Shown: in pieces, positions 16,108 to 27,086 of the stretch
Layout: each line of letters opens with the position of its first letter
Numbering within the stretch: the first letter of the stretch is position 1
Virus record (IMG/VR): IMGVR_UViG_3300017971_000680
Span: 1-27,086 of that record
Strand: one strand, 5' to 3'
DNA from: a virus
Length of the DNA: 27,086 nucleotides
Position numbers and translations under genes: made by a program
The notes under the pieces: model-generated
Database searches by the model: none
The model's input: the letters and a program-made list of their open reading frames with translations, nothing else
Told to the model about the DNA's origin: nothing

Positions 16108-16716
16108 GTGTACGCGGAACGTCTGTATGCAGAAGGGTTGTACGCGCACGGCGTAGCCGCGGTGACCGTTGCGTACCGGACGGTCGAGTACCACTTGGAG
16201 CTCCGGTCCAAAACCGGCACGCTGTTAGCGCATCTGCCCTGGTGGGATAAAGCCGTCTGGACACAGGAGACAAACGTTCCGGACCGGTTGGAGTTCACGT
16301 ATCCGGCATGGGACGAGGTGTGTGCCGATCTCGAGACGCCGAACCAGGTCTGGTTACGCGATAGCGCTCATGAGTACGAGCTCCTGCAGAAGTTCCGTAT
16401 CCAGGTGGTGAAACAGGTCTCGGAAAAGAACGAATACGTTGCGGTGACCTGCGAAGATTTGTTGTGCCAGCTTGCCGACGAATGGATCGACGAGTACGAA
16501 GGTGGCCCAACAGATACTGTCGCGGACGCTCTCTCGGACTGGTTTGGCCGACAGGTGAACAGCCCGAAACTGTCAAGGTACCTGGTATCGTCGGGTATAG
16601 CGAACGAGCAGATGGAGATCAGCGTGGTGAACCAGTCGGTGCTGGCAGCTATCCGGAACCTGCAAGAGAAGCTCGGGGGGTATATGCGGGTGAGTCCCGC
16701 TCGGCGGTTCACCTGA
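16108..16716 (+). CDS. Tail-associated endopeptidase family protein, N-terminal part (ends at in-frame TGA)
   Basis: 202 residues from GTG 16108 (GGGAG upstream) to TGA 16714-16716. It resembles the first half of the phage tail endopeptidase/Tal family (PF06605-like): paired beta segments such as W-T-Q-E-T-N-V-P-D-R-L-E-F-T-Y-P, C-E-D-L-L-C-Q-L, a D-T-V-A-D-A-L helix and L-G-G-Y-M-R-V. The frame after TGA continues unbroken with T-T-S-I-G-K-N-I-G-Q-Q-I-R and the rest of the family. The stop therefore falls inside one gene, at a place where homologues usually have Trp. It is either a nonsense mutation, an error, or a read-through site. Confidence 0.6.
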   Translation: MYAERLYAEGLYAHGVAAVTVAYRTVEYHLELRSKTGTLLAHLPWWDKAVWTQETNVPDRLEFTYPAWDEVCADLETPNQVWLRDSAHEYELLQKFRIQVVKQVSEKNEYVAVTCEDLLCQLADEWIDEYEGGPTDTVADALSDWFGRQVNSPKLSRYLVSSGIANEQMEISVVNQSVLAAIRNLQEKLGGYMRVSPARRFT

Positions 16717-16803
16717 ACCACCAGTATCGGGAAGAATATCGGGCAGCAGATCCGACGTGGGAAAAACCTGAAAGGTATCGAGGTCGAACGCGATTTCACG
16801 GAG

Positions 16804-17484
16804 ATGACAAACCGGTTGTACGCTTATGGAGCAGGGCAGAACCGGGACAGCCGGTTGACGTTGAAAGATGCTGGTGAATCTCACGAATATCTTGATGACA
16901 GTTCGTCTCAATCGACCTGGGGCCGGATAGTCTGCGGGGTGTATCACAACTCCGAGATCACCGATGCCTCAACGTTGAAGAAGGTTGCTCAGAAAATCTT
17001 GGCGGCAGAATCCGACCCGCGTATTGATTACCTGGTGGACATACCCGATCTGAGCCAGGACGCCAACGCGCCACGCGATTTCGAGCATATCGAGTTGGGC
17101 GCCCGGATAGTGTTGATCGACGAGAAACTTGGTATCTCGACGACACAGCACGTGGTCAAGGTCGAACGTGACCTCCGGAAAAAGCTGAACATCACGGTCG
17201 GGTTGTCGAACAAGAAACAGTTGCTCGGCCATTTGATCGCTGAACTCATACAGAAACAGAAAGAGCTCGACTTGGGCGATGTCGAGACGTCGGAGCTTGA
17301 CCCGGAAGATATCGGGACAGCAGCAGACCCTGGCAGTACGGGCGAGTTCGCGGACGCTGGACATAGGCACAAAGGGTTGACGGTCTATACGAGCAATCCG
17401 GAGCCGTTGGGAACGGCTAGTCCTGGCGATTCGGGTTTCGCATCGGACGGGAAGCATGTGCATCCGATCCCGAAATATACATAG
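16804..17484 (+). CDS. Tail-associated endopeptidase family protein, C-terminal part
   Basis: In the same frame as the previous gene; the open frame begins at 16717. Without read-through the first ATG is 16804 with a poor SD. Codons 16717-16803 encode the family's G-K-N-L-K-G-I-E-V-E-R-D-F block, which then continues into T-E-M-T-N-R-L-Y-A-Y-G, a very typical tail-endopeptidase match. A middle region follows, and then two His-rich motifs at the end (G-H-R-H and D-G-K-H-V-H-P-I-P), a pattern seen in fibre and spike tips that bind metal or join to the next protein. With the first part it would be about 458 residues. Confidence 0.65.
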   Translation: MTNRLYAYGAGQNRDSRLTLKDAGESHEYLDDSSSQSTWGRIVCGVYHNSEITDASTLKKVAQKILAAESDPRIDYLVDIPDLSQDANAPRDFEHIELGARIVLIDEKLGISTTQHVVKVERDLRKKLNITVGLSNKKQLLGHLIAELIQKQKELDLGDVETSELDPEDIGTAADPGSTGEFADAGHRHKGLTVYTSNPEPLGTASPGDSGFASDGKHVHPIPKYT

Positions 17485-20045: not shown

Positions 20046-20279
20046 TCACGGTAACTGGTAGGTTGATCGGTGCTCGATCTGTCTGTCGTACCGTTCGAAC
20101 CCATAATGCAACGCCCAACAGACCAGACTGCCGACGATCACCATGATCACAATCGCTTTACAGATTGCCCGGTTCTCTCTGGCTTTTGAGAAGAACCTGG
20201 TCCCGCAACCTGGACATCGGTCTGCGTCAGGGTCAACCTCGACATGGCAGAGTTGACATTCGACAAGTTTTCTGGACAT
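20046..20279 (-). CDS. Zinc-ribbon membrane protein (77 aa)
   Basis: 77 residues. N-terminal zinc ribbon C8-x-x-C11 ... C22-P-G-C25-G, then a basic region and one membrane segment (about 39-58, rich in I/V/L). The ribbon would lie in the cytoplasm. Similar short ribbon-plus-membrane proteins occur in bacteria and phages, often with unknown role. SD AGGTGA lies about 6 bases upstream. The start overlaps the stop of the upstream minus gene (TGATG), so the two are coupled. Function unknown; its isolated location suggests a lysogeny-expressed cargo gene. Confidence 0.7.
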   Translation of the reverse strand: MSRKLVECQLCHVEVDPDADRCPGCGTRFFSKARENRAICKAIVIMVIVGSLVCWALHYGFERYDRQIEHRSTYQLP

Positions 20280-20440
20280 CAGTCGTCACCTGTTTCGTCA
20301 GGAGCTAGGAGAAGATCGCGGGACGGCTCATTTGCTACACGCCAGATGAGGTACAAGGTCAGCGGGAATAGAATGATCGCCAGGACAAGACACACGAGCC
20401 CCATGCCGATGAAACCGAGAACCTGAGCAGCGCGGATCAT
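20279..20440 (-). CDS. Small membrane protein (53 aa)
   Basis: 53 residues. Most of it is one long hydrophobic segment (about 8-34, with G-M-G-L-V-C-L-V-L-A-I-I-L-F) followed by an acidic tail ending E-T-G-D-D. Its stop and the next gene's start share a base (TGATG), which supports a real gene. An SD-like GAAAGGGG is 5-12 bases before the ATG, and a good promoter lies further upstream. Not recognised as a family. With the downstream ribbon-membrane protein it may act at the membrane during lysogeny, for example in superinfection exclusion, which is only a guess. Confidence 0.65.
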   Translation of the reverse strand: MIRAAQVLGFIGMGLVCLVLAIILFPLTLYLIWRVANEPSRDLLLAPDETGDD

Positions 20441-20465
20441 ACGATACCCCTTTCCCTTGCCGAAT

Positions 20466-20495
20466 AGGATAGCATCGGCACCTGGTATAAGTCAA
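20466..20495 (-). promoter_or_regulatory. Sigma70-like promoter for the two small membrane genes
   Basis: On the minus strand, TTGACT (20495-20490) is separated by 18 bases from TATCCT (20471-20466), which is about 26 bases before the ATG at 20440. Five of six -35 bases and four of six -10 bases match consensus. Confidence 0.6.
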
Positions 20496-20533
20496 GTGGG
20501 TTCGGCGTTTCGGCAACGTGAAAAAAGCACGGC

Positions 20534-20547
20534 ACCGAAATGTCACC
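20534..20547 (+). repeat. Direct repeat CCGAAATGTCACCG, copy 1
   Basis: Exact 14-base match to 20734-20747. The pair flanks the tRNA-like core, so they could be integrase arm-type sites. Confidence 0.55.
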
Positions 20548-20585
20548 GACCGACCGGCAGGCTAGGACAGATAACGGGTTGGTAA

Positions 20586-20604
20586 CGAATCCCCTCTTCG
20601 GCAC
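20586..20604 (+). other. attP: Putative attP core matching a tRNA-Leu 3' end
   Basis: CGAATCCCCTCTTCGGCAC equals the end of a tRNA: T-loop part CGAAT, T-stem CCCCT, acceptor CTTCGGC, then A-C. The implied acceptor 5' strand GCCGAAG is typical of bacterial leucine tRNAs such as E. coli leuX. The rest of the tRNA is absent, as expected of an attP that restores the 3' end of its target. It lies about 300 bases past the integrase stop. Confidence 0.55.
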
Positions 20605-20733
20605 TACCCCTTTTCCGCAAGTCGCAACACGCTACCAGTTTACACGTTAAGACCTTCTGTCGGCCAGTGTTAGCGCGGCCAAACCCGCGCCGATTGAGTA
20701 GGAACGAAGCGAACGAAACCGAACGAGTCGGGA

Positions 20734-20747
20734 GCCGAAATGTCACC
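20734..20747 (+). repeat. Direct repeat CCGAAATGTCACCG, copy 2
   Basis: Second copy, 200 bases from the first. Its end also forms the left arm of the GTCACCG ... CGGTGAC inverted repeat at 20742-20765. Confidence 0.55.
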
Positions 20748-20897
20748 GTTTTGGGCACCGGTGACGGTGGTGACTCTATCAGGTCGATCATGGCGTACCT
20801 GAAGCCGAAACGGTACCACCATGGCAAGAACGATACGGCAGACCATAAATCATACGTCGAAGCAGACAAAATCGATTCTGAAGGCATTTCGGCAGTC

Positions 20898-21923
20898 TCA
20901 CAGCAAATCCAGCTTCGCAATAGCAGATCCGACGTGTTCGGCCTCGAGATGGGCGTATCGCATGGTCGTCTCAATGTCACGGTGGCCGAGGATGTCCTGG
21001 ACGGTACGGAGCGGGACGCCAGCCATGACGAGATGTGACGCGCAGGTGTGCCGTAACGTGTGGATTGACGCGCCGTCGATCCCCGCCTTCTGACAGCAGC
21101 GCTTGAAGTTCCGGTCAAAATGGCGTAAGCGGCCGCCGCTCCTGGTAGCGAACACGAGCCGGTCAGATCGGTGTGGGACGTTTTTCAGGACCGGTTTCAG
21201 GTCAGGATGTAACGGGATACCTCGAGCTTCCCGACCTTTCGGCTGGAAATCTTGCCGGACCCGGACGGTGATGAGGTTCCGTTTGAAATCGATGTCGCGC
21301 CATTCGAGGTTCTCGAGCTCGCCGCGCCGCATCCCGGTCAGGAGGTAGGTGGTCCAGACTGCCCGTTCGTACTCTGAGGAAACGTCGAGCAGCCGGCGAA
21401 TTTCGTCACCGGTCAGGTACCGGGGCGTCGTGTACCGACGTTTGGGCCGATGGACTTTGGCGACCGGGTTGTCCGTGAGGTACCCCATCTGGATCGCCGT
21501 GTTGAAAAAGACGTTCAGGATCGTGAGCTCGTGCGCAACGGTGTTGGGTGCAATATGTTTCGACCGTTCAGCTTTGTACTGTTCGAGATGTTCCGGTTTG
21601 ATATCGCGCAGCAACGAGAAGCGGCGAGCACTACAGAAGTACCGGAAATGACGCGCGACTTCGATGTACCGTTGCGCCGTCCGCGGCGACCGGTTGCGCT
21701 CAACCCAGTCAAGCCAGAAATCGAAATAGTCCGCTACCTTGACCGGGGCCCGATGACCAGGCAGATCGTCCAGCCGGTCGAGCTCGAGTGTGGCTTCGAC
21801 TTTTGCCAGGACACGTTCGGCCTCTTTGCGGTCGTGGGAAACCGCACGTCGGACACGTTTCCCGGCGACAGAATACGAGATATACCACATCTGCCGGTCA
21901 GACCGGTAGTAGATGGTCGCCAT
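20898..21923 (-). CDS. int: Tyrosine integrase
   Basis: 341 residues. An N-terminal arm-binding region (about 1-55) and a SAM-like core-binding domain (about 60-155) are followed by the catalytic domain. All tyrosine-recombinase residues are visible: R199 (T-G-M-R-R-G-E-L), K229, H288 and R291 (H-T-L-R-H-T), H314 (L-G-H) and Y323 (M-R-Y-A-H-L). It would join attP to the host site, here probably a leucine tRNA gene. The ATG directly follows the stop of the small membrane gene on the same strand, so the repressor, membrane gene and integrase probably share a transcript. Confidence 0.95.
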   Translation of the reverse strand: MATIYYRSDRQMWYISYSVAGKRVRRAVSHDRKEAERVLAKVEATLELDRLDDLPGHRAPVKVADYFDFWLDWVERNRSPRTAQRYIEVARHFRYFCSARRFSLLRDIKPEHLEQYKAERSKHIAPNTVAHELTILNVFFNTAIQMGYLTDNPVAKVHRPKRRYTTPRYLTGDEIRRLLDVSSEYERAVWTTYLLTGMRRGELENLEWRDIDFKRNLITVRVRQDFQPKGREARGIPLHPDLKPVLKNVPHRSDRLVFATRSGGRLRHFDRNFKRCCQKAGIDGASIHTLRHTCASHLVMAGVPLRTVQDILGHRDIETTMRYAHLEAEHVGSAIAKLDLL

Positions 21924-22277: not shown

Positions 22278-23045
22278 TCAACCCTCCCATTTTGACCAGG
22301 ACCACGCCACAACTCCAATGACGGGGTTTTCATCCTCTTCTGGACGAATACAGAAACAACGGTACTCTGGATTTTCAGGTCGTAAGAGGAGGCCTGATTC
22401 GGGATCGATGCCTTCGAGCCACTTGACCGTGACACCGCCCTCATGCCGGACGGCAACGATCCGTTTCTGGCTATGCCCGACCAAATGCTCGGCATCCGCC
22501 TCTTTGGTGTCGATGCACACGACGCTGCCAGACGGGAGAATCGGCTCCATCGAGTCGCCTGTAATCTCGACACAGACATACCGGTTCGGCTCTTTAACCC
22601 AGTCCGAGTAAATCAGGGCATAGTTTCGTGTCTCGTGCTCTGCATAGACCGAACGCGGAGCGCCGGCGGCGACGGATTCCTCGAGGACAGGGATAGCCGT
22701 GTACCGCTCTGTTTCGTTAGCGAGCCGTTTTCTCGCCTCTCTTGACGGGCTGACAACGACAAACTGGGCCGGTTCTCTCTCCAGGTCTATTCCGACATCG
22801 TAACCGAGCTCATGAAGCAAAACCGCAAGAGGCAGACCCATACCGCGTGCAAGCAAGACCACCTTCTCGATCCCCGGATTGCCCGTGCTACCGGAGATGA
22901 TATCAGTGACATATCCGGTGGTCAGCTTGTTCCCGCTTGCCGCGATGATCTGCTGATGGGTTAGGCCAACCCGTTCGATCAACGCTTCCATGCGCTGCGC
23001 CAGCTCTTTATTCTCGGGGGGTATCTTACGCCGCTTCTTCTTCAC
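22278..23045 (-). CDS. CI-like repressor with S24 autoprotease domain
   Basis: 255 residues from GTG 23045 (GGGAG upstream; the ATG one base earlier in another frame meets a stop at once). An N-terminal HTH (about 12-75) is followed by a LexA/CI-type peptidase domain. Visible: cleavage site A127-G128 (V-A-A-G-A-P), nucleophile S165 (G-D-S-M-E-P) and K208 (V-T-V-K-W-L). It should hold the lytic genes off and self-cleave after DNA damage. It is divergent from the early operon, with the control region at 23046-23170 between them. Confidence 0.9.
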   Translation of the reverse strand: MKKKRRKIPPENKELAQRMEALIERVGLTHQQIIAASGNKLTTGYVTDIISGSTGNPGIEKVVLLARGMGLPLAVLLHELGYDVGIDLEREPAQFVVVSPSREARKRLANETERYTAIPVLEESVAAGAPRSVYAEHETRNYALIYSDWVKEPNRYVCVEITGDSMEPILPSGSVVCIDTKEADAEHLVGHSQKRIVAVRHEGGVTVKWLEGIDPESGLLLRPENPEYRCFCIRPEEDENPVIGVVAWSWSKWEG

Positions 23046-23170: not shown

Positions 23171-23458
23171 ATGAGCCAGATCACACGGTCTTCCGGTAAA
23201 CGGTTCTTGACGGTTGGAGAAGCGGCAGAGATATGTCGGGTCTGCCGCGACACTATCAGGGCAGAAATTGAGCGGGGGCATTTGGCCGCCACCCGGATCG
23301 GTTTACGGCGTATCGTGATCCAACGCGAAGAGCTCGAACGGTACATAGAAACACGAACCCCAAACCCGAACGGTGCAAGCAACATCACGTCCGAGATTAT
23401 AGACGAGGCCGGGCAGATTTGTCAAGAGAAAAGGGTAGGGGGGCGCGGAGTCCGCTGA
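23171..23458 (+). CDS. Excisionase-like HTH DNA-binding protein
   Basis: 95 residues with GAGGAGGA upstream. Residues 10-60 form a winged HTH of the excisionase/MerR type: F-L-T-V-G-E-A-A-E-I-C-R-V-C-R-D-T-I, then G-H-L-A-A-T-R-I-G-L-R-R-I-V-I-Q-R-E-E-L-E-R-Y. It is the first gene after the divergent promoter. It may act as Xis for the tyrosine integrase or as a Cro-like early regulator. The C-terminal 25 residues are polar and not recognised. Confidence 0.75.
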   Translation: MSQITRSSGKRFLTVGEAAEICRVCRDTIRAEIERGHLAATRIGLRRIVIQREELERYIETRTPNPNGASNITSEIIDEAGQICQEKRVGGRGVR

Positions 23459-23735: not shown

Positions 23736-23783
23736 CGTCCCGTCAGAACGGGGTTGAACGGTACAAAAAAGGAGGGAAGGTCG

Positions 23784-24764
23784 ATGAACACGTCCACAGC
23801 ACTTACCGAGACGGCGCAACGGCAACCGCCGTCGCATCCGAGCGAGATTACAGCTATCCGAGGGATAACCGACCGGATACAGTTGCCGCGGTCGGGGTTC
23901 CTGCGGCTCGGCGAACCGATGGAAGGGCGGCAGTATCCGAAAGCGTTGGATCATTTCCGGCCGGATATCGAGTCGCCGTCGTTGGCCGAAGCGTTCAGAG
24001 AACGGTACGGTGACAAACCGAAAGAGGTGCCGTTTGTGTTCCCGCATCCGCAGTTTGGTGTGGTGGCGGCGCAAGCATACCGGTACTATCGCGGTTCCAA
24101 AGTCGCGCCGACCGAAGGCAAACGGCGGGGTATCCTCGCGTGTAAAGGTGAAGGCCGGACCGGATGGGCGACACGTCGGACAGATGACGGTACCTGGGAG
24201 ACGATTGAATGTCCCGGGGCTGAGGAGTGCGCTTATTGCCGGAGCGATACGAACAGCCAACCGAAATGTGTCCGGTCGATGTTCATGTTGATCTTACCGT
24301 ACGAGCTCCCGACCTGGACGGTCCTGCAGGTCAACACGACGTCGCGCCATTCGATGAACAACGTCAATGCTGCGCTCGTGACGTTACAACGGACACGCGG
24401 CCAGATAGATTTTATCCGGTGTGTGCTCCGGTTGGTACCACAGCAGGTGATGTTCCCGGACAAAAATGGCGTGTTCAAAGCGACGAACGCTCACGTCTTA
24501 CAGATCGATATCGGTGAACCGTTGACCGAGTTTGTGAAAGCGCCGCCGTTGATCGGGGGGTACGAAGTCCAGGTGGCGCCGCCTGACGATGACGAATGTC
24601 CGGCAGACGATCTGTACGGGCCGCAGTATATGAACGACGAAGAAACTCAGGAAACCGCCGAGACCGACCCGGTTAATCCTAAAGGCGCTAATTCCGCACC
24701 ATCAGCGCCACCTTCCCCCCGTAATCCGGGTCGGTCCGGCGATTCTAAGGAGTGGTTCTTCTGA
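23784..24764 (+). CDS. Recombination directionality factor-like (Gp3-like) protein
   Basis: 326 residues from ATG 23784 (AAAGGAGGGAAGG upstream). It resembles the phage family often named Gp3-like/recombination directionality factor-like: a cysteine cluster (C120, C143, C149, C152, C162) around C-P-G-A-E-E-C, followed by M-F-M-L-I-L-P, a T-T-S-R-H-S-M-N-N-V segment, then L-R-L-V-P-Q-Q-V-M-F. The C-terminal 60 residues are acidic and Pro-rich, ending K-E-W-F-F, a possible docking tail like those of single-strand-binding proteins. The true role is unclear because this phage has a tyrosine, not serine, integrase. Confidence 0.55.
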   Translation: MNTSTALTETAQRQPPSHPSEITAIRGITDRIQLPRSGFLRLGEPMEGRQYPKALDHFRPDIESPSLAEAFRERYGDKPKEVPFVFPHPQFGVVAAQAYRYYRGSKVAPTEGKRRGILACKGEGRTGWATRRTDDGTWETIECPGAEECAYCRSDTNSQPKCVRSMFMLILPYELPTWTVLQVNTTSRHSMNNVNAALVTLQRTRGQIDFIRCVLRLVPQQVMFPDKNGVFKATNAHVLQIDIGEPLTEFVKAPPLIGGYEVQVAPPDDDECPADDLYGPQYMNDEETQETAETDPVNPKGANSAPSAPPSPRNPGRSGDSKEWFF

Positions 24765-25007: not shown

Positions 25008-26105
25008 ATGCAGTTACGGTTACCGATCCACGTGACGGATGTGCAGAAGTACAAGCGGTGCCCGAAGATGTTCGCGGCGGAGGTCGAGAAACGGTACCGC
25101 CAGCCCGAAGGACATCTCTCGCACCTAGGAGTGCTGGTCCATAGCGTGATCGCTGAGTATCTGCGATGGTGCCGGGCGAACGGTCAGCAGACGGATTACG
25201 ACCGGTTGCCGGTTATCTTGAACGACAAACATCGGGAGTCGGGTATGGCGCCCGAAACATGGGATGAGGCGTACGAAATCTGTGACACGTTCGCTCGATC
25301 ACATCTTGTACCACAAGGCCACGTCATGATCGAGGGGACGATCAAAGTTGACCGGGAAGGTCGGCTCGTACATGACGATAGTCCGCTCGGCTGGCTGGAA
25401 GGCACACCGGATTTTGTCGATTACGAACGGGACGACCGGGTGACGATTGTCGACTGGAAGTCGGGGTACGCCAGCGAACCTGACTGGTTCCAGTTGGAAA
25501 CTTACGCCTGGCTGGTGGCCGAGACTATCAGTATGACGGCACGACCGGCCGAGTACGAGCTCGTGTACGACTATGTCCGGTGGAACGTCGTGAAATCCAA
25601 GATCGTCACAGCAGACGATCTGCCTCGTATCGAGAAACGGTTACGGCGGATAACCGACCTGATGGAGAAGGATACGGAGTGGAAAGCGACCCCCGGTACC
25701 GGGTGCTCGTTCTGTACGGAAGAGTGTTCGGTGGAAGTCCGGCCATACGTGTGCCGGATAGAGGATGAAGCGGTCGAGATGGCCCGGGCGCTGATACTTG
25801 CGGAGAAAGAGAAGAAGCGGATCGAAGGGTATCTGAAACCGTACATAGCAGAACACGGCAACGTGACGGTGAACGGTATCGAGGTGGGGTACAAACGGTC
25901 AGGCGATCTAGTATGGCCCGATGTCGACACGTTCAAACGGGCCTGTCTGGACGCCGGGGTGAACCCTGTCGAATACCTGAAAGTGGATACACGGCAGGTG
26001 AACAAAGAGTTGCGGGACAACGGCGAGTTGCCGGGTTGGTTGGTGGCGATAGGCGAGAGCGGTGCGACGTTGCGGTTTGGGACGCGCAAAGCGAAAGGGG
26101 GGTGA
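25008..26105 (+). CDS. Cas4/RecB-like PD-(D/E)XK nuclease with Fe-S cysteines
   Basis: 365 residues from ATG 25008, chosen by the AAAGGAGAG SD 15-7 bases upstream. PD-(D/E)XK motifs: H45 (G-V-L-V-H-S), E109, D135 (G-T-P-D-F-V), D149-W-K151, and Q162/Y166. Cysteines C18 and C233, C236, C240 form the pattern of the Fe-S cluster found in Cas4 and AddB. Such phage nucleases process DNA ends in replication or recombination. The gene directly precedes a Rad50-like ATPase, a common functional pairing. Confidence 0.8.
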   Translation: MQLRLPIHVTDVQKYKRCPKMFAAEVEKRYRQPEGHLSHLGVLVHSVIAEYLRWCRANGQQTDYDRLPVILNDKHRESGMAPETWDEAYEICDTFARSHLVPQGHVMIEGTIKVDREGRLVHDDSPLGWLEGTPDFVDYERDDRVTIVDWKSGYASEPDWFQLETYAWLVAETISMTARPAEYELVYDYVRWNVVKSKIVTADDLPRIEKRLRRITDLMEKDTEWKATPGTGCSFCTEECSVEVRPYVCRIEDEAVEMARALILAEKEKKRIEGYLKPYIAEHGNVTVNGIEVGYKRSGDLVWPDVDTFKRACLDAGVNPVEYLKVDTRQVNKELRDNGELPGWLVAIGESGATLRFGTRKAKGG

Positions 26106-26109
26106 AGGG

Positions 26110-27086
26110 ATGAAAGTCGAACGGTTGACCATCGAGAACTTCCGGGGTGTGGAGAAAGCGGATCTCGATCTGTCCCGGCCGGTCACCATGATCGTCGGCG
26201 AGAACGGTGTCGGCAAAAGTACGGTGGCTGACGCGCTCGAGTTTGTCCTGACAGGGAAGTGTCGGAACACTACCAGGAGCGGTGCGGGTGCCAGCGACCT
26301 TATCCGGCAAGGCTCTAAATCGGCCTCTATCGCGGCCACGGTCCGGACCCCTACCAAAACCCTACAGGTGGCCCGGAAGATCGACCACAAAGGCGTTTCG
26401 CTTGAAATAGAGGGGTACCAGGGGAACAAAACCGAGCTCGAGACGTTGTTGTTCCGAGACCTCGGGGTGTCGCCGGACGTGCTCGGCGCGTCGTTACGGG
26501 TGAGCCAGTTTATCGAGGACCCGAAATCCCGGTTACAGATACTGGCGGATGTTGCTGGTGTGGAGTTTGACCAGACCTCTATCGGTGCGGCAATCGAGGA
26601 CGAGCACCTGAAAACGTTCCTGGAAGAACAACTGTCGATGACGGCTCAGACTGTGGGGATGACCTCGCTCGATGCTGTGACTAAGCTCGGCCAGATTGCC
26701 GAGAAGATGCGGCGTGACGCGAACCGGAAAGTCGACAAAGCGCTCGGGGTACTGGACCAGAACAAGACGGCAGTCCAGATACCGGCGACGGCGTCCGGCA
26801 AAGTGTTCACGGTCAAGGAAACGGAGCAAGTGGAGGACGCGTTAGCGTCGCTCAAAACCAAACGGGACGGGTTGTTCGAGGAATTGGGCAAACTCGAAGG
26901 GGACAAGACCAAAGGGAACGGTCGAGACGAGACCATCGGTCGGTACAAGACCATGATCGCCGAGATGGAGAAATCTATCGCAGAGAAACGCGCGGAACAA
27001 GACCGGGTCGACCAGATGGAACGGTGTCCGACCTGCGACCAGAAGTTGACCAAGACCGCGCGGAAACGTATCGCGAAAGGGTTGCC
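26110..27086 (+). CDS. Rad50/SMC-like ATPase, N-terminal part (runs off the window)
   Basis: 325 residues are visible and the frame is open at the right edge. Seen: M-K-V-E-R-L-T-I-E-N-F-R-G at the start, Walker A G30-E-N-G-V-G-K-S-T, a Q-F-I-E-D-P-K-S-R-L-Q-I-L stretch (Q-loop region), then long charged coiled coil, and C306-P-T-C309, like the zinc hook of Rad50. It probably works with the preceding nuclease on DNA ends or recombination. The signature and Walker B motifs would lie past the edge. Confidence 0.85.
   Translation, partial: MKVERLTIENFRGVEKADLDLSRPVTMIVGENGVGKSTVADALEFVLTGKCRNTTRSGAGASDLIRQGSKSASIAATVRTPTKTLQVARKIDHKGVSLEIEGYQGNKTELETLLFRDLGVSPDVLGASLRVSQFIEDPKSRLQILADVAGVEFDQTSIGAAIEDEHLKTFLEEQLSMTAQTVGMTSLDAVTKLGQIAEKMRRDANRKVDKALGVLDQNKTAVQIPATASGKVFTVKETEQVEDALASLKTKRDGLFEELGKLEGDKTKGNGRDETIGRYKTMIAEMEKSIAEKRAEQDRVDQMERCPTCDQKLTKTARKRIAKGL

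Follow-up and report, generated by a model that had tools for sequence, protein, structure and literature searches.

The window, meaning the whole stretch of DNA analysed here, is a 27,086-base linear virus record from IMG/VR (IMGVR_UViG_3300017971_000680) with a G+C content of 57%, and it carries an uncultured temperate tailed phage of bacteria. Its left part encodes, in order, the end of a terminase, a portal protein (phrog_10963), a capsid protein (PF25209), a tape measure protein, and tail proteins. These are followed by an integrase, an S24-type repressor, an HTH_17 protein, a Gp3-like protein, a PD-(D/E)XK nuclease, and an SbcC-like gene. A second IMG/VR contig, 3300017963_001095, comes from the same phage (99.93% identity over 10,068 bp); it reaches 4.4 kb further left and includes the terminase, and it does not contain the attachment site described below.

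The lysogeny genes begin with the integrase gene (20898–21923, minus strand) and the gene for a CI/LexA-like repressor with a Peptidase_S24 domain (22278–23045, minus strand). On the plus strand lie the genes for the HTH_17 protein, a candidate excisionase (phrog_66; 23171–23458), and for the Gp3-like protein (23754–24764), whose Pfam description is recombination directionality factor-like. Such Gp3-like proteins are presumably partners of serine integrases; here the gene sits in a phage with a tyrosine integrase, and a relative is also present in the G003 prophage discussed at the end of this text. Elsewhere in the window, a tail-spike-like gene (16108–17484; TIGR01665 in its second half) is interrupted by one in-frame TGA (16714–16716), after which the same frame resumes; the TGA may be a nonsense mutation, a sequencing error, or a case of recoding. 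The SbcC-like ATPase gene (26062–27084) is cut off at the window end and resembles several defence ATPases, weakly only.

The integrase is a 341-residue tyrosine recombinase with PF00589 and SAM-like domains. The catalytic residues R, H-x-x-R, H, and Y are all present, within the motifs TGMRRGEL, HTLRHT, LGHRD, and MRYAH (at 196, 288, 312, and 321), and R199, R291, and H314 are invariant across the integrase alignment. Structure prediction, of moderate quality (mean pLDDT 77.6, pTM 0.52), places three strands (residues 2–7, 12–19, and 22–29) and a helix (32–49) at the N terminus, giving a predicted beta-beta-beta-alpha arm-binding domain, and the top PDB fold match is full-length lambda Int (1z1b, 353 columns). 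The protein is predicted to be a lambda-type (heterobivalent), three-domain integrase, an architecture that uses arm sites. In a tree with 69 relatives it forms a lone, long, and deep branch. When 50 IMG/VR records with related capsids were searched for the integrase, two weak matches were found; hence, this capsid family is mostly without this integrase in its IMG/VR fragments. No convincing gene was seen in the gap past the integrase gene.

A tRNA-Leu 3′ end beyond the integrase gene

The gap contains a 19-nt sequence, CGAATCCCCTCTTCGGCAC (20586–20604, plus strand), that is identical to tRNA-Leu genes from T-loop position 56 through position 74. This putative attP core sits 293 bp beyond the 3′ end of the integrase gene, and its tRNA 3′ end faces the integrase 3′ end, so that the two are convergent. 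The first base identical with the tRNA is C56, in the T loop, the phage having AA in place of T54 and T55 (AACGAAT in the phage, TTCGAAT in the tRNA), and the last is C74, one base into the CCA. The core is single-copy in the window even when up to three mismatches are allowed. It is also the sole window match longer than 14 nt to a yardstick set of 78 distinct tRNAs covering 16 isotypes (Phe, Tyr, Trp, Ile, and Asn are among the isotypes absent), the runner-up anywhere in the window being 14 nt long.

Nearly all tRNAs carry GGTT in front of this part of the T loop. A 22-mer consisting of this GGTT and the core minus its final C was therefore used as a probe against the approximately 85,000 species genomes of GTDB, where it occurs at 25 places in 23 genomes. 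The complete 19-mer is present at 23 of these places, and 18 of its 19 bases at the other two (L030 and L031). ARAGORN identifies 24 of the 25 as tRNA-Leu, 11 with anticodon CAG and 13 with GAG; the remaining one, a tRNA-Leu fragment, marks the far end of a prophage of 42 kb. An earlier sequence-only reading of this DNA had guessed the leucine identity from consensus and had proposed a search for tRNA-Leu genes with this 3′ end; such genes exist, and the guess was right. Within the viral_contigs collection, neither the 19-mer nor a 20-mer with the phage AA in front and the final C dropped was found in any other record.

A chance match between phage DNA and a rare tRNA 3′ end is very improbable. 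The rarity of the 22-mer speaks in its favour; however, only about 0.0003–0.001 matches of 18–19 nt are expected between a 455-bp region and 100,000 distinct tRNA ends (an assumed number), and the 19-mer sits at the very place expected for an attP. Still harder to credit is the idea that the contig is an integrated prophage and the stretch an attL or attR, as might be entertained because the record is linear and IMG/VR also contains proviruses. A tRNA gene search of the window found none, and tRNA-Leu similarity upstream of the core is at shuffle level, with 282 of 500 shuffles scoring equally well; a degenerate tRNA-Leu upstream of the core was rejected on this ground. Phage genes flank the stretch on both sides, unlike attL or attR, and since both flanks look phage-derived, the contig would come from free, excised, or concatemeric phage DNA. 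An attP is thus indicated by a core that matches the 3′ portion of a tRNA gene exactly and extends to the end of that gene, that adjoins an integrase gene, and that has phage DNA on either side.

A point of strand exchange can also be predicted. Lambda-type cores with a 7-bp overlap are described in a review (PMC8371274). If the overlap has to be identical in phage and tRNA, it cannot be the 7-bp T loop, given the phage differences at T54 and T55. The symmetric element CGAA-TCCCCTC-TTCG (20586–20600) would supply a lambda-like 7-bp spacer instead: the predicted crossover is TCCCCTC (20590–20596, plus strand), between the inverted half-sites CGAA (20586–20589) and TTCG (20597–20600). The pattern CGAA-N7-TTCG occurs twice in the window.

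Repeats and candidate arm sites around the core

Two identical 14-bp direct repeats, CCGAAATGTCACCG, flank the core on the plus strand and are candidate P-arm (20535–20548) and P′-arm (20735–20748) sites. The core is off-centre between them, 37 bp from the left copy and 130 bp from the right. In 5000 first-order Markov versions of 20443–20897, a direct repeat that reaches 14 bp or more is rare (p = 0.0008). The whole 27 kb holds 15 repeated 14-mers in 10 families, and the repeat therefore matters only through its location. The right copy overlaps an inverted repeat, GTCACCG-N10-CGGTGAC (20742–20748/20759–20765), which is at chance level: some 7-bp inverted repeat within 60 bp is expected in the 232-bp stretch with p = 0.43 under the same model, and it carries no weight by itself.

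The motif RCCGAAAYG extends the set of candidate arm sites. Five of its seven window copies fall at 20506–20893, and they include GCCGAAACG at 20506–20514 (minus strand) and again at 20804–20812 (plus strand), as well as GCCGAAATG at 20885–20893 (minus strand), just past the integrase stop. Perfect 9-nt inverted pairs are formed by the copies at 20506 and 20804 and by those at 20734 and 20885. Five-member clusters of similar 9-mers arise in 15 of 20 simulated sequences of equal length, and hence this wider arm-site set, backed mainly by its location, is rated as suggestive. The hexamer GCCGAA is likewise found seven times in 435 bp, where 0.75 occurrences per 600 bp would be expected; in a genome-wide comparison, a more extreme hexamer cluster appears somewhere in at least 10 of 60 simulations, so that this clustering is unexceptional genome-wide and serves as a local argument only.

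Core, direct repeats, and inverted repeat all lie where the sequence-only reading had placed them, with fair coordinates, though the core is not central. The weight that it gave to the inverted repeat was misplaced, and its description of the attP as compact does not suit candidate arm sites that span 20506 to 20893. Its reading of the stretch as the attP of a tyrosine integrase fits well by position at the integrase 3′ end, by orientation, and by the predicted lambda-Int-like fold.

The stretch is thus, with little doubt, the attP of a temperate tailed phage whose lambda-type Int would act between the 19-bp core and the 3′ end of a tRNA-Leu gene (GAG or CAG) in the host. The N-terminal domain of Int would bind arm sites to the left and right of the core, the 14-bp repeats at a minimum and probably other RCCGAAAYG copies within 20506–20893, and the catalytic domain would bind the core. 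By bridging arm sites and core, Int would then exchange strands with the tRNA-Leu attB, the core recombining with the identical 3′ end of the host gene if the site is used in this way in a living host. Because the phage carries T-loop position 56 to position 74, integration would leave a whole tRNA-Leu gene at attL, adjoining int and converging on it. This restored tRNA would end in ...GGCACTA, the encoded CCA becoming CTA, and would thus need post-transcriptional addition of CCA.

Candidate hosts and integrase relatives

The gene into which the phage very probably inserts is a tRNA-Leu gene, and at this level the earlier prediction of the host integration gene (tRNA-Leu, GAG or CAG) held; it did not extend to the organism. 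Genomes with the site are labelled Nitrospirota/Thermodesulfovibrionia, Latescibacterota, Thermoanaerobacterales/Tepidanaerobacteraceae, Cloacimonadota, Gemmatimonadota, Syntrophobacteria, or simply 'bacterium'. Host candidates include Latescibacterota, Thermodesulfovibrionia, and a small Syntrophobacteria-labelled class (G013, G014, and G022); since the 22-mer is so rare, any particular host is unproven.

Among the 23 site-bearing genomes there is no close relative of the capsid, and one genome (G003) matches distantly. The capsid has no match at E 1e-20 in 64 Latescibacterota genomes and three genomes of the G014 class, and the terminase gives six matches in 395 genomes of the G014 phylum, the best by E-value having 36% identity over 461 residues. 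No lysogen, attL, or attR of the window phage was found among the genomes searched, nor any integrase match above 45% over more than 100 residues (best E 3.3e-51, 35%). One site-bearing genome, G012, has an integrase match of 57%–60% at a contig edge; this was rejected as a lysogen, as it covers only 52–54 conserved C-terminal residues and lies beside a tRNA-Val. Tetranucleotide composition did not single out a host: in a comparison of the window with 98 loci, the candidates are scattered over ranks 7 to 96 (Nitrospirota 7–27, the class of G013, G014, and G022 36–96, and Latescibacterota 67–93). In the Syntrophobacteria-labelled genome G022, two contigs (L043, 1–512, and L044, 4949–5089) have precisely 141 bp in common, a stretch that ends at the CCA of a tRNA-Leu(GAG). 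One contig stops at the CCA, and the other continues into a 119-residue C-terminal integrase remnant 11 bp beyond the tRNA. Such an assembly branch at the CCA is as expected from a partly occupied site, which it may reflect; other repeats could also give it.

For comparison with relatives, 71 integrase loci were collected (12 from one search, 29 further from 35 places, and 30 from about 120 places), and 69 were retained, the other two covering at most 60% of the query. Of the 69, 44 (41 under a stricter distance rule) have a tRNA gene no more than 300 bp from the integrase 3′ end, and three have one that close to the 5′ end. The window core is on the same side as these 44 and shares the convergent orientation that 32 of them show. 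In 12 of the 69 (L211, L232, L234, L208, L214, L222, and others), the tRNA at the integrase 3′ end runs in the same direction as the integrase and faces it with its own 5′ end; integration on the 5′ side is possible in these relatives.

The tRNA concerned varies (Arg, Gly, Glu, Ala, Lys, Leu, and others). L171, the top match of one search (39% identity), lies 6 bp from a convergent tRNA-Leu(CAG); the best match overall, L298 (the 35% match above), adjoins tRNA-Arg and tRNA-Pro; and L301 (45% over 180 aa) adjoins tRNA-Thr. A second copy of part of the tRNA was sought in 13 relatives and G003; G433 and G498 were excluded because their contigs end within 4.4 kb, leaving 12 elements (11 and G003), with G159, the genome of L171, outside this comparison. 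The copy begins at the anticodon loop in nine of the 12 and at the T loop in none. Three have no copy: G276 and G405, where the contigs end (25 kb and 9 kb read), and G469. The window core thus appears, by sequence, to differ in tRNA subsite from its integrase relatives. The sequence-only reading had named related prophages with a different core as evidence against it, and this is the case in part: relatives do use other tRNAs and the anticodon loop, yet they are only about 30%–45% identical to the window integrase.

These relatives raise the unlikely alternative that the 19-mer survives as a fossil from an earlier integration site or recombination, with the working core elsewhere, for example, nearer int and of the anticodon type. 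Their tRNA genes are close to int (9–165 bp in the listed relatives, against 293 bp from the int stop to the window core), and their repeats start from the anticodon loop. However, apart from the core, 20280–21000 has no match above 10 nt to the 78 tRNAs of the yardstick set, with its 16 isotypes, and Rfam models give no tRNA match in 20250–21000; moreover, a fossil need not stay exactly identical all the way from T loop to gene end. Since the integrase branches deeply and alone, little can be learned about it from its relatives, and a difference in subsite does not contradict the preferred reading of the 19-mer as the working attP core.

A fuller history can be offered tentatively, as a possibility that is somewhat doubtful. 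The lone deep-branch integrase may have switched from the anticodon-loop subsite to the T-stem/acceptor junction of tRNA-Leu, its arm sites coming to occupy about 390 bp and its core moving to 293 bp from int, in a host among the uncultured lineages with this tRNA end (Latescibacterota, Thermodesulfovibrionia, and the small class with the Syntrophobacteria-labelled genome). For an orphan phage contig, the attP core provides a clue to the host, in the form of a short list, together with a testable integration site, and one integrase lineage whose tRNA subsite is unlike that of its sequence relatives is a small data point on the evolution of subsite choice.

Known systems and other users of the same tRNA end

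The arrangement of a core beside an integrase gene is well known and ordinary, and the window is a new example of it. The Islander study distinguishes the anticodon loop, the T loop, and the T/acceptor junction as tRNA subsites and counts 2083 islands that are anticodon-centred and 1836 at T-stem-region sites (PMC4383910). As the classes are set out there, the window core fits the combined T-loop/junction class J and its tested sequence relatives fit class A. Among T-loop cases, mycobacteriophage Ms6 has been studied; its 26-base core lies in tRNA-Ala, and its integration depends on core identity (PMC1762012). Both cores match a tRNA gene at its 3′ end and take in T-loop bases; the Ms6 core contains the whole T loop (PMC1762012), whereas that of the window differs at two T-loop bases, and its crossover must therefore be further 3′.

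Pseudomonas phage D3 (AF165214) is among the top 20 matches in a phage collection and is the one that was opened. It has a lambda-type Int (30% identity), and an AttP is annotated directly beyond the 3′ end of its int gene, lying between int and the lysis side. On the strand opposite int, this AttP reads by eye like the 3′ portion of a tRNA whose variable arm is long. The D3 AttP is about 61 bp long, starts at the anticodon arm (again by eye), and lies 5 bp from int, whereas the window core is 19 bp long, starts in the T loop, and lies 293 bp from int.

A parallel in site is found in G003 (DUMA01000024.1, Thermoanaerobacterales). There, a convergent integrase gene comes after a tRNA-Leu(CAG) that has the same 19-mer, and a 57-bp copy of the 3′ part of the tRNA recurs 42 kb away. 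Between these repeats lie genes for terminase, portal, capsid, sheath, tape measure, and endolysin; this 42-kb element (L181/L277/L182) is a myoprophage sitting in tRNA-Leu(CAG). A second tyrosine integrase gene is located near its far end (L182, 10535–11539). The G003 prophage shares with the window phage the tRNA-Leu 3′ end, an integrase convergent with the tRNA, a distantly related capsid (24% identity), and the Gp3-like gene (27%); it differs in its contractile tail, in a 57-bp repeat that starts from the anticodon loop, and in having two integrases.
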